Positions 31,375 to 35,081 of a stretch of DNA of 35,149 bases are shown here, piece after piece. Below the pieces are notes generated by a model. The model did no database searches. It had not been told where the DNA came from and saw only the letters and a list, made by a program, of their open reading frames with translations. The translations under genes were made by a program, and so were the position numbers. The stretch spans positions 1-35,149 of the forward strand of contig DQNS01000057.1 in assembly GCA_015659035.1 (NCBI GenBank), written 5' to 3'. Source of the DNA: Acidobacteriota bacterium. Lineage in GTDB: Bacteria > Acidobacteriota > Vicinamibacteria > Vicinamibacterales > UBA8438. Position 1 is the stretch's first letter; every line of letters begins with the position of its first letter.

Positions 31375-31403
31375 TTGACATCTGATGTGTGATGCGAGAT
31401 GCT
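31375..31403 (+). promoter_or_regulatory. Promoter of vapBC-2
   Basis: A consensus -35 TTGACA (31375-31380) is followed after 17 nt by GATGCT (31398-31403), a weak -10. The predicted start falls at about 31410, exactly the GTG that begins the conserved VapB sequence, and no Shine-Dalgarno precedes it. This suggests a leaderless transcript, as for vapBC-1. Confidence 0.42.
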
Positions 31404-31409
31404 GCCGTA

Positions 31410-31637
31410 GTGCGTACCACGCTCGATGTCGATGACGATGTCCTCCAGGCTGTCAAGGAACTGGCGGCGGTCCGGCGCCTGACGGCGGGCCGTGTCATCT
31501 CGGAGCTCGCCCGCGCGGCGCTTCAGCCTTCGCGCCCGGCTCGAACCAGAAACGGCGTACCGGTCCTCCCGTGCCGGCCACCCGATGCTCGCCGACCAAC
31601 GATGAAGCTGGTCAACGAGCTGCGGGACGGTGAGTAA
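31410..31637 (+). CDS. vapB: Type II antitoxin, VapB family (second module)
   Basis: The 75-residue protein begins VRTTLDVDDDVLQAVKELAA and continues LTAGRVISELARAAL, a ribbon-helix-helix DNA-binding unit. The C-terminal half (NGVPVLPCRPPDARRPTMKLVNELRD) has the 'NGxPVLP ... VT/VNELRD' form seen in VapB partners of PIN toxins. GTG 31410 matches the usual RTTLD start; an upstream ATG at 31392 would add six residues. The toxin follows after 27 nt, which contain an AATCGA/TCGATT inverted repeat. Confidence 0.82.
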   Translation: MRTTLDVDDDVLQAVKELAAVRRLTAGRVISELARAALQPSRPARTRNGVPVLPCRPPDARRPTMKLVNELRDGE

Positions 31638-31664: not shown

Positions 31665-32114
31665 ATGACCCGACCGGCGCTCCTCGATGTGAATGTCCTC
31701 GTCGCGCTGTTCGACCCCGACCATATCCATCACGACCTGGCGCACGACTGGTTCGCCGACAACCGCAGCCAGGGCTGGGCGACCTGTCCGCTGACGGAGA
31801 ACGGGTTCGTGCGGGTGTTGGCGAACCCCGCGTATGGTGGCCCGGTCGCGCGCGCTTCGGAGCTGCTCTCCCGACTTGGGATGTTCTGTCGCGCCGAGGA
31901 CCACCAGTTCTGGCCCGATGTGGTCTCACTGCGTGACGAGACACGCTTCGACCCGGCGATGATGACCGGACATCGCCAGCTCACCGACATCTACCTGCTT
32001 GGTCTCGCATGCGCGCAGCGTGGTTGTTTGGCGACCTTCGACCGCAGTATTCCGCTGAACGCGGTCATCCAAGCCACGCCGCAGACGCTCACGGTCATAG
32101 AACCGGCCGACTGA
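31665..32114 (+). CDS. vapC: Type II toxin VapC, PIN-domain ribonuclease (second module)
   Basis: The 149-residue PIN protein has an intact acidic site: Asp8 (ALLDVNVLVALFDPDH), Glu45 (PLTENGFVRVL), Asp108 (QLTDIYLLGLA) and Asp126 (LATFDRSI). The NGFVRVLANPAYGG and GHRQLTDIYLL patterns are those of the TA-system PIN subgroup that pairs with NGxPVLP-type antitoxins. No Shine-Dalgarno is visible; the spacer from vapB is AT-richer. Unlike module 1 there is no overlap with the antitoxin, and the two toxins share little beyond the fold, so they are not a recent duplication. Confidence 0.9.
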   Translation: MTRPALLDVNVLVALFDPDHIHHDLAHDWFADNRSQGWATCPLTENGFVRVLANPAYGGPVARASELLSRLGMFCRAEDHQFWPDVVSLRDETRFDPAMMTGHRQLTDIYLLGLACAQRGCLATFDRSIPLNAVIQATPQTLTVIEPAD

Positions 32115-32197: not shown

Positions 32198-32226
32198 TTG
32201 ACATCCGACGCCACTTGGCCAAGGAT
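32198..32226 (+). promoter_or_regulatory. Putative promoter of the structured 32.2-32.5 kb transcript
   Basis: TTGACA (32198-32203) with a 17-nt spacer and AAGGAT (32221-32226) forms a plausible sigma-70 promoter. Its TTGACATC octamer is identical to the start of the vapBC-2 promoter. Just upstream, GTCCCT...AGGGAC (32173-32194) forms a stem-loop after vapC. Confidence 0.4.
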
Positions 32227-32340
32227 CGGCGTGATGTTCCGCGCGAGATGCGGCGGCCTCGGGTTGGGCCTGGGCGGTCCTGAGGCTGGGCGGGATGGGA
32301 CCCGCCACCCATGGTAACGCCTGGCGAAGGAGGTGATCCT

Positions 32341-32385
32341 GTGGACGATTACGACAGTAGCTCTGCGGAGGTGGCGTCCTCGTAG
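32341..32385 (+). CDS. 14-codon ORF behind a perfect Shine-Dalgarno
   Basis: GTG at 32341 follows AAGGAGGTGATCC (32327-32339), a 13-nt perfect complement of the canonical 16S rRNA 3' end, at ideal spacing (7 nt from GGAGG to GTG). It encodes the acidic peptide MDDYDSSSAEVASS and stops at TAG 32383-32385. No downstream gene follows before the terminator, so it is not an ordinary attenuator leader. It may be a real micropeptide, a ribosome-docking element of an sRNA, or the relic of one. Confidence 0.42.
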   Translation: MDDYDSSSAEVASS

Positions 32386-32461
32386 GGACCTCCAGCGCAC
32401 TGGTGGCGCCAGGGGGACCCCGTCACGGGGGAACCCAACGCCGCCGACGCAGACCGTACGC

Positions 32462-32500
32462 AAGAGCCCCGGTCCTTTCGGACCGGGGCTCTTTTTAATT
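32462..32500 (+). terminator. Strong intrinsic terminator
   Basis: A perfect 14-bp stem (AAGAGCCCCGGTCC / GGACCGGGGCTCTT) with a TTTC loop is followed by TTTAATT. It ends a plus-strand transcript, either the structured RNA or read-through from vapBC-2. The 100 nt between it and the converging dehydrogenase gene are very GC-rich and hold another GGGGC-GCT-GCCCC hairpin. Confidence 0.93.
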
Positions 32501-32601
32501 AGTCGGGGCGCTGCCCCGAACCCCACGCGGCCGCTCGGGGGGACCCCTGAGCCCCGCGCCGCGCCCGCGGGGCGCGCATGTGCGCGCCCTGGCTCCCATA
32601 T

Positions 32602-34965
32602 CTAGTACCCCTCGAGCTCCGGAAACCGCTCGTCGTCCGGGAGCGGTTGCACACCGAACGCGTTCAGCGTCATCGACACCATGCGATAGCGGGCCGCGGT
32701 GGCGGCAATGCTGAACATCTGGTGCGTGTCGTAGCGTTCGGAGAGCGTGGCCCAGGTCGCGTCCGAGATCATCGTGTCGCGATACATCTCGTCCGCCGCG
32801 TCTATCAGCGCCAGCTCGTTCGCGTCCCAGCCGGTGGCATCTTTGCCCTGGGCGATCCAGAGCGGCTCGAGCCCGCGCTCGCGCGCGCGGCCGACGCTGC
32901 CGACGTGCTTCGCCCATTCGTAGACCGCCTGCGCGTTCCACCCGGTGCGCAGAATGAGCAGCTCGCGGTCGTGCGGCATCAGCCGCGACCGCTCGGGATT
33001 CAGTATGTACCCCGGATTCGTCCCGCGCGCCGCCGCCATGTCCGGATGCCGGCGGAACGTGCGTCCCACCCGCAGCCCGTCACCCTCGAGCGGTTCGATC
33101 CGCGGCACCTCGAGCGACGGCTCGCGGTCGGGCACGACGACGCGGTAGGCGACATCGTCGGTCGGGATGCGTGCGGTCGTGTCGTCGTCAGGCTGGATCC
33201 CGAGCGAGTTGAACAGGATGGCGTTCGACGTGGTCTCGTTCACCGTCACGACGGCGTCCACCATGTTGTACAGGTCGTACTGCTCCGCAAGCGTGTCCCA
33301 GGTCTGATCGGTGACCGACGCGTTCCGGAACAGCTCGTCGGCCAGCCCGAGCAGCACCGCCTCGAACTCGCTCCAACCTTCTGCGGGCCCCTCCGCCACG
33401 CGCTGCACCTCCGCGGCCGACAACCCGGACGCGCCGGCCCGACTCGCATGTGTCGCCCAGAGGTTGGCGCTCTGGGTGAGCCAGGCGGTGCGCAGGATCA
33501 GCATCGCGCGATGACGCGGCGACAGCGTCGAGTCGCGTGCGATGTAGCCCATGAACGGAAATACCCGGTCGGCCAGCGCAGGCACCCGGACGAGCGTCCG
33601 CAGCGCGTTGCCCGGATTGCCGTCGGGCGCATACCGTTCGACGAGGGCGCGCTGCTCGTCGGTCCACTCCGCCTCCGGCAGCGGCGGGACGCGCGGCTCC
33701 TCCAAACGATCGACGAAGATGCCGCTGCCGGGGGGATCGGTAATCGCATGCGCCGGCTCGATGCGCAGCAGGACCCCGTCCTCTTCCTCGGTCAGAACGT
33801 AGAGATACCCATCAGGGCCCTGCCGGACGTCCCGGATGCGCTGCTTGAACTCGGTCAGCAGCCACTCGCGGCGAATCTCTTCGCCCCGCCGGTTGAAGAC
33901 AATCCGTTCGATATGTCCCGTGCGCTGCATCCGGCCGACCATCATCGACCCGACGATGAGGTTGCCCTGCCAGGCGGGGAAGTGCTCGCCGGTGTAGAAG
34001 GTCAACCCGGACGGCGCAATCGACGGCCACCAGAGCACCTCCGGTTGCGCGAACTGGGCGAGCCAGGGCGTGTCCGTCACCCGAACACCGGAGTATTCAC
34101 GGCTGTAGGAAGCAATCGGCCACCCGTAGTTCTCGCCCGCCTTGATGATGTTCGCCTCGTCGCCACCCTGCGGCCCGTTCTCGGTCGCCCACAGCTCGCC
34201 GGTCTCGGGGTGAATGGCGAGGCCGAGCTGGTTCCGGTGCCCCATCGAGTAGATCTCCGGCAGGTACTCGGCGTTGCCGATGAACGGGTTGTCGGTGGCC
34301 GCCGTCCCGTCGTCGTTCAGCCGCATCAGCTTGCCGAAGTGTGTGCCCGGATCCTGGGCGTAGCTCCCCGTGTCGGCGAACACATAGGAGCCCCCGACGC
34401 TCATGAACAGCGTCCCGTCCGGTGCGAAAATCACCCTGGAGGCGGCGATGCCGCGGTCCAACCCCTCGGCCACGAAGATGTCGCGGACCTCGGTCAGAGC
34501 GCCCCCGTCGAGGCGGCCCCGGGCCAGCGCCACGGTCACACTCGGTTGCCCGTCACGCTCTATCGGCTTGGAGTAGGTGAGGTAGACGATGCGGTCGTCG
34601 CTCGGGTGGACGGCGACGTCCATGAGCCCAGCTCGACCGACGCCTTTGACGACCTCCGGCACTCCCGGGATGTCGCGCTCCAGGAGCTGACCGTTGCGGA
34701 TGACCCGCAAGGCGCCCTTGTCACGCTCGGTCACCAGGATGTCGCCGTTCTGTCGGAAGGCCAGCCCCCACGGATGGGAGAGCCCGCGGGCAATCGGCAC
34801 CACGCGAATGCGCGGCACCTCGGCCGTGCGGAGCACCACCGGCCCATCGGGCGGCGGCAGCGCCGGCACGCCGTCCCGCCGCTGGGCGGACGTCGAGACG
34901 CCGGCGAGGGCGAGCGCGAGCGTGAGCGCGAACAACGGACGTCGAAGCCGAGACAGATGGCTCAT
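32602..34965 (-). CDS. PQQ sugar dehydrogenase fused to two carboxymuconolactone-decarboxylase-like domains
   Basis: The 787-residue secreted protein starts at ATG 34965 with GGGAGG upstream and has a signal peptide (LFALTLALALAGVSTSAQ). Residues about 45-410 are a soluble aldose sugar dehydrogenase (GSDH) propeller: GLSHPWGLAFRQNGDILVTERDKG, GRAGLMDVAVHP, GHRNQLGLAIHPETGELWATENGPQGGDEANII, NYGWP and IRDVRQGPDGYLYVLTEE. Two CMD/AhpD-like alpha-helical units follow (about 445-590, SPRHRAMLILRTAWLTQSANLWATH; about 620-775, PHDRELLILRTGWNAQAVYEWAKHVG). Neither has the CxxC of peroxidatic AhpD. Periplasmic oxidation of an aldose or aldehyde is likely; the CMD units may process the lactone product, but this is inference. 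Confidence 0.9.
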   Translation of the reverse strand: MSHLSRLRRPLFALTLALALAGVSTSAQRRDGVPALPPPDGPVVLRTAEVPRIRVVPIARGLSHPWGLAFRQNGDILVTERDKGALRVIRNGQLLERDIPGVPEVVKGVGRAGLMDVAVHPSDDRIVYLTYSKPIERDGQPSVTVALARGRLDGGALTEVRDIFVAEGLDRGIAASRVIFAPDGTLFMSVGGSYVFADTGSYAQDPGTHFGKLMRLNDDGTAATDNPFIGNAEYLPEIYSMGHRNQLGLAIHPETGELWATENGPQGGDEANIIKAGENYGWPIASYSREYSGVRVTDTPWLAQFAQPEVLWWPSIAPSGLTFYTGEHFPAWQGNLIVGSMMVGRMQRTGHIERIVFNRRGEEIRREWLLTEFKQRIRDVRQGPDGYLYVLTEEEDGVLLRIEPAHAITDPPGSGIFVDRLEEPRVPPLPEAEWTDEQRALVERYAPDGNPGNALRTLVRVPALADRVFPFMGYIARDSTLSPRHRAMLILRTAWLTQSANLWATHASRAGASGLSAAEVQRVAEGPAEGWSEFEAVLLGLADELFRNASVTDQTWDTLAEQYDLYNMVDAVVTVNETTSNAILFNSLGIQPDDDTTARIPTDDVAYRVVVPDREPSLEVPRIEPLEGDGLRVGRTFRRHPDMAAARGTNPGYILNPERSRLMPHDRELLILRTGWNAQAVYEWAKHVGSVGRARERGLEPLWIAQGKDATGWDANELALIDAADEMYRDTMISDATWATLSERYDTHQMFSIAATAARYRMVSMTLNAFGVQPLPDDERFPELEGY

Positions 34966-35081
34966 GGGGTCCTCCCAGGCTGGAATGCTCAACACTCTAC
35001 CGCAGCCGGCGTCGGAAAGGCATGGCTCTTCACGAGCAAGCTGGCCAGCGTCCAGTCCTCGATTTCGCTATGATCTGCTCG

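Follow-up and report, generated by a model that had tools for sequence, protein, structure and literature searches.

A structured RNA family of Acidobacteriota with a conserved micro-ORF and a 13-nt site complementary to the canonical 16S rRNA tail

Results and discussion

The locus and its predicted transcript

The window, by which we mean the whole stretch of 35,149 nt of Acidobacteriota DNA analysed here, contains a predicted RNA gene with a micro-ORF, flanked by a VapBC-like gene pair and by a convergent glucose/sorbosone dehydrogenase gene (Table 1). The VapBC-like pair lies directly upstream on the plus strand and comprises a small antitoxin-looking ORF without Pfam matches (31389-31637) and the gene of a PIN-domain protein (31665-32114). 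The promoter assigned to the RNA gene is conserved among its relatives: exact TTGACA occurs in 34/47 non-redundant homologues, the spacing is 17+/-1 nt, the -10 element has the form xAxxAT or xAxxxT, and a promoter score of at least 9 out of 12 is reached by 70% of the homologues, compared with 2% of shuffled sequences. Judged by sequence, the RNA therefore has its own promoter and terminator, as dual-function sRNAs do, the transcript itself being predicted. Past the terminator (32500-32600 of the window) there is a GC-rich sequence, GGGGC..GCCCCGAACCCCACG..., found in the same place in three homologous loci (L004, L006, L008), which may be a repeat-like element.

The original prediction, made from the window alone, had proposed a transcript starting at 32233, a 13-nt anti-16S site longer than any other in the window, a 14-codon ORF behind it, and a 14-bp terminator. 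The start agrees with the position of the promoter, the exact copy of the site proved to be unique, and the ORF and the terminator were placed as listed in Table 1. Of the checks that it had named, those for homologues, covariation and conservation of the frame gave positive results.

Table 1. Features of the RNA locus in the window
Feature	Position	Strand	Remarks
Promoter (TTGACA 32198-32203, 17-nt spacer, AAGGAT 32221-32226)	32198-32226	+	kept in most homologues
Predicted transcript (whole RNA gene)	32233-32495	+	~262 nt; promoter-to-terminator interval; homologues
P0, 5' hairpin CCGC/GCGG	32239-32253	+	complementary changes seen by eye
P1 hairpin (32256-32263 with 32279-32286)	32256-32286	+	loop holds GGGCG 32272-32276
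P2 hairpin GGCGGG/CCCGCC	32289-32306	+	GGG-containing loop; covariation
Pseudoknot strand CGCCU	32318-32322	+	pairs with P1-loop GGGCG; covariation
13-nt site AAGGAGGTGATCC (putative extended Shine-Dalgarno)	32327-32339	+	complementary to canonical 16S 3' tail; 59/60 homologues pair fully
14-codon ORF, GTG start, TAG stop, peptide VDDYDSSSAEVASS	32341-32385	+	ORF in 60/60 homologues
P4 5' strand GGUGGCG	32370-32376	+	within ORF codons 10-12; long-range helix
P5, small hairpin UCC/GGA	32377-32388	+	stop codon in loop; 73% of cells paired; weakest helix
ACCTCC element	32388-32393	+	pairing-capable with either GGAGGT; enriched after stop, not universal
P7 hairpin CCCC/GGGG	32418-32430	+	77% of cells paired; two pairs with compensatory changes
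P4 3' strand CGCCGCC	32439-32445	+	pairs with GGUGGCG of ORF
Intrinsic terminator (14-bp stem, T run)	32462-32493	+	terminator-like in 43/47 homologues
Glucose/sorbosone dehydrogenase gene	32602-34995	minus	Pfam match; convergent to RNA gene

Across genomes, the genes downstream of the RNA encode such different products as a VTT-domain protein, M48 peptidase, malate synthase, LMW phosphatase, SDR and carbamoyl-phosphate synthase (neighbouring genes were delimited by taking the longest ORF, a simple rule that predicts too many genes in GC-rich DNA, and only those with a Pfam match are named). They are often convergent to the RNA, as in the window, although both orientations occur. Since the neighbouring genes are of unrelated kinds and may point either way, the RNA is not the leader of one particular gene, and a uORF or leader-peptide attenuator of a fixed gene is rejected by the synteny, there being no consistent same-strand gene downstream. 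In its layout the locus does match an attenuator, with hairpins and a terminator behind a short ORF that has a strong Shine-Dalgarno sequence, but the differing and often convergent neighbours largely refute this reading, no common codon run or antiterminator was seen, and we consider it very improbable. With its own conserved promoter and terminator sequences and its unrelated neighbours, the RNA gene is apparently autonomous.

Distribution of the family

Within the family to which the window belongs, BLASTN detected the RNA in 23 of 28 genomes; genomes sampled from the order's other families gave no match. A first covariance model concurred with BLASTN, and we discount its sole extra match (24 bits) as noise. 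When 84,980 species genomes were scanned with a DNA pattern, the records obtained came from Vicinamibacterales, Thermoanaerobaculia and one uncultured bacterium, apart from a few matches by chance; these records and further homologues were used to build phylum-wide covariance models. Matches of model R2 under ~30 bits were counted as noise and were gone with model R3. The covariance model identified the RNA in 41 of 396 Acidobacteriota genomes, representing 22 genera and 15 family-level lineages, with one copy each; in this phylum search the weakest true match scored 83 bits, and no further match appeared at E<=0.001. The distribution is patchy, with several well-sampled families apparently devoid of the RNA, though the absence from a lineage may be a miss, because model searches over more than 40 genomes were run with stricter filters. 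The draft genome G022 carries two near-identical copies on its contigs C78 and C52 (L008, L043), one of them with several changes; the pair probably reflects an assembly duplication or a strain mixture.

Comparison with Rfam 15 revealed no family reaching the gathering threshold in the window or in L080, L081, L085 and L100; the best sub-threshold matches (Spot 42, CC2171 and others) fall far under the cut-off. Nor did we find a description of the family in the literature searched. The comparative evidence strongly supports a structured RNA family that had not been catalogued before and that carries a conserved micro-ORF. Several known RNAs were considered as candidates and rejected. ARAGORN found no tmRNA in the window, and a separate tmRNA is present in the genome of origin and in four related ones. 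Likewise, the window has no match to the 6S RNA family (RF00013), while 6S RNA is encoded on another contig of the same genome and elsewhere in four relatives. No repeated GGA loops, as in a CsrA sponge, were seen by eye, and a phage origin was rejected on the lack of any match in viral contigs to the pattern used.

An Anaerolineae contig (L085, ~376-437) contains AGGAGGTGATCCAGTG followed by an 11-codon ORF (VDDSMVEVLDL), hairpins and a terminator. This element scores 23 bits with R3, equal to a chance match (L077), so we do not claim that the family has spread to Chloroflexota and regard the element as an analogue or a chance occurrence.

The anti-16S site

The copy of AAGGAGGTGATCC in the RNA is the sole exact one in the window, the runner-up having 2 mismatches, and also the only one in the 3.2-Mb genome of origin. 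Three other genomes (4.7-10.2 Mb) contain the exact 13-mer once each, always inside the RNA; this genome-wide count of extended start sites covered the exact 13-mer only. The site is present in all 60 homologues read and exact in 29 of them. A candidate extended Shine-Dalgarno sequence, it can pair over all 13 nt in 59/60 homologues, G-U pairs included, with the canonical bacterial tail GGAUCACCUCCUU and not the hosts' own 16S tails as the reference (a tail-pattern search recovered no 16S 3' end from near-complete genomes including G007, G491 and G216). Because the homologues are mutually related, such counts are not independent events and those with one sequence per lineage are safer; there, 24/25 pair over the full site. 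Among the distinct site-peptide combinations 36/37 substitutions are A>G or C>T, i.e. G-U compatible with GGAUCACCUCCUU, as read with a pattern that was written after seeing the sequences and that dropped no homologue. Transitions of A and C are always G-U compatible, hence the informative features are the lack of transversions at these positions and the near-invariance of the G and T positions. By these comparisons, pairing constrains the evolution of the 13-nt site. A displaced fragment of 16S rRNA was rejected by direct reading, the bases around the site being unlike the 16S 3' end.

Such a constraint might be met in a ribosome-binding decoy or hibernation RNA, in which the full complement would hold the 30S subunit by its 16S tail and translation would be incidental. 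That the 13-nt complementarity exceeds what initiation normally needs, that no second exact copy exists in the searched genomes, and that it drifts almost solely to G-U pairs would all suit a decoy. However, a decoy needs no start codon at a fixed spacing, no open frame and no stop, all of which are conserved here, and the RNA is single copy with one site. Moreover, extended pairing can occur within normal initiation complexes (PMC13009471). We consider a decoy improbable.

Conservation of the reading frame

In the window, the GTG start sits 1 nt 3' of the anti-16S site. The homologous ORFs have lengths of only 13, 14 or 15 codons, changing in threes, and start with GTG, TTG or ATG; in L138, where the GTG is lost, an ATG a few bases downstream opens the same frame. 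The 374 variable codons of 47 distinct ORFs include no in-frame stop, compared with 23 and 32 stops in the other frames and ~20 in shuffles; with one sequence per lineage (n=25) there are 0 stops in 198 variable codons, against 14 and 20 in the other frames and ~12 in shuffles. Conservation of the frame is well supported by these counts. The small-ORF definition of PMC11109978 asks for a conserved start and stop, coding-like conservation and no consistent gene downstream, and all of these were found, with codons 3-6 as the weak part. The stop is TAG or TAA, the two interchanging, and never TGA in the 60 homologues. In these GC-rich genomes the stop is thus always readable by release factor 1, and the use of these two stops may reflect either a constraint on the RNA in P5 or a termination requirement.

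The RNA fold

None of 200 shuffled versions of the stretch folds as well as the native sequence (z -3.9), and 11 pairs show two-sided changes, against 3.7 in shuffled controls and 3-5 in slid registers. Hairpin P2 has compensatory changes at all 6 counted pairs and 96.7% of its cells are paired. The pseudoknot, whose 3' strand ends 4 nt before the anti-16S site, is paired in 95% of the cells (45 sequences), with 0/20000 shuffles as good and only 40-56% in slid registers, and shows compensatory changes in L100, L128 and L140/L141. The long-range helix P4 is paired in 315/315 cells; three separate lineages (L016/L017, L128 and L140/L141) carry compensatory changes, and the helix covaries both by missense (GCG>ACG in L016/L017) and by synonymous change (GCG>GCA in f18). 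For P4 and the pseudoknot the shuffle controls are exceeded by a small margin, most cells being invariant, whereas the slid registers score far lower. Variants of P0 recognized by eye include CCGCAU/AUGCGG in L010 and CCGUG/CACGG in L015. In our assessment comparison establishes P2, P4 and the pseudoknot, while P5 and P7 are weaker. One homologue (L012, genome G005) has an insertion of ~45 nt between the stop and P7 with the site, ORF and P4 intact, so the variable region between stop and P7 tolerates expansion.

The original prediction had also described a switch-like layout in which two GGAGGT copies compete for one ACCTCC. The comparison supports this switch in part. The copies (32329-32334 and 32368-32373) are indeed placed as described, and the ACCTCC element is enriched after the stop (48% of non-f1 homologues versus 13% of shuffles), but several lineages lack it, and the bases of one GGAGGT also belong to the better-supported helix P4. 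Burial of the Shine-Dalgarno sequence by folding was rejected: the predictions give no clear ON or OFF state (mean unpaired probability 0.34-0.41). Conservation, covariation, frame and promoter statistics all argue against a chance resemblance in an untranscribed intergenic stretch, the probability of which we regard as negligible.

Peptide or act of translation

The RNA could be a structured mRNA whose functional product is the peptide of 13-15 residues. Frame, start and stop are kept in all homologues; codons 7-8 favour Gly and then Leu/Met/Ser, with partly synonymous variation (TTG/TTA/CTG); the peptide mostly ends with [AVTM]-E-V-A-x-[SP]; and the very strong start site would fit a high output. 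On the other hand, codons 3-6 are as variable at positions 1 and 2 as at position 3, with no third-position excess; this indicates no amino-acid-level constraint there and suggests that selection acts more clearly on the frame than on the peptide. Within the ORF, nucleotide and codon conservation peak together: E-V-A falls on the P4 strand GGUGGCG, paired in all sequences, and is altered by missense changes that are compensated in the RNA (A>T in L016/L017, E-V>G-A in L128). Since codons 3-6 are unconserved and the conserved E-V-A overlaps a paired RNA strand, the peptide is weakly supported as the product, and we view a micropeptide gene as a rather unlikely explanation.

The reading to which we give about an even chance is that of a stand-alone Acidobacteriota RNA in which ribosome loading and translation gate the fold. 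Comparison supports its gene, promoter, terminator, site, frame, P2, P4 and pseudoknot, whereas translation itself, the melting of P4, action in trans and the function controlled are what we infer. The 5' domain (P0, P1, P2 and the pseudoknot) would present a start site that matches the free 16S tail along its full length; the 30S subunit would bind it, initiate at the GTG, read 13-15 codons and stop at UAG or UAA. The last codons of the ORF form one strand of P4, the other strand of which lies near the terminator in the same molecule, so that a ribosome at the end of the ORF would have to melt P4, and an idle RNA would re-form it. Recruitment about as strong as base pairing allows, together with last codons placed in P4, would make the passage of the ribosome a folding input. 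The act of translation, not the peptide, would set the shape of the RNA, with the melting of P4 as the regulatory step, and the RNA could report on free ribosomes or on the capacity for initiation, acting in trans or via its own stability. More tentatively, and with a clearly lower probability, it may be a trans-acting sensor of ribosome availability that samples free 30S subunits via their complete 16S tail and changes between two folds when a micro-ORF, whose peptide is irrelevant, is translated. To our knowledge, such switching by a peptide-indifferent micro-ORF is known in no stand-alone bacterial RNA.

The original prediction had named three possibilities: a new sRNA, a gene for a micropeptide, and an RNA that sequesters ribosomes. 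Homologues, covariation and frame bear out a structured RNA family with a micro-ORF, but the peptide as product gains little from them and pure sequestration leaves the open frame and the stop unexplained. The small RNAs of Acidobacteriota have, as far as we know, hardly been studied, and a phylum-wide, single-copy family is missing from Rfam. This RNA joins a ribosome recruitment site of the greatest possible strength to a frame apparently selected for openness more than for sequence, and offers a testable case of translation serving as an RNA-folding signal rather than for making a protein. The RNA would also test whether full pairing with the 16S tail matters outside Staphylococcus.

Comparison with known systems

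Spot 42/SpfP, SgrS/SgrT and SR1/SR1P are dual-function small RNAs with micro-ORFs. Our family resembles them in its predicted independent short transcript, intrinsic terminator and tiny ORF, but differs in that the ORF lies inside a covarying, pseudoknotted fold and that the frame, not the peptide, is conserved. With tmRNA it shares a pseudoknotted structure and a short internal reading frame for ribosomes; unlike tmRNA, it has no tRNA-like domain, and its ORF has its own Shine-Dalgarno sequence and start. The odc1 and ilvB/fthC uORF candidates likewise combine a conserved structure with a conserved micro-ORF (11 codons in odc1) and a Shine-Dalgarno sequence, but they sit upstream of a consistent gene, whereas the acidobacterial RNA has no conserved neighbour and its own terminator (PMC8632094, PMC11109978). 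The downstream-peptide/yfr6 RNA is also a structured RNA of ~250 nt with a short coding sequence and indels in threes, but it is cyanobacterial and a riboswitch candidate with its conserved structure confined to the 5' UTR, while the acidobacterial RNA has no Rfam match (PMC2864571). Finally, in the aur mRNA of S. aureus extended pairing between the Shine-Dalgarno and anti-Shine-Dalgarno sequences directs initiation at a GUG, and G-U is able to replace A-U (PMC13009471). The acidobacterial site would likewise pair with the 16S tail beyond the canonical core, with a GUG start and compatibility with G-U. In aur, however, two extra pairs extend the site of a normal mRNA (PMC13009471), whereas the acidobacterial family retains the full 13 nt, and does so in a stand-alone structured RNA with a micro-ORF.
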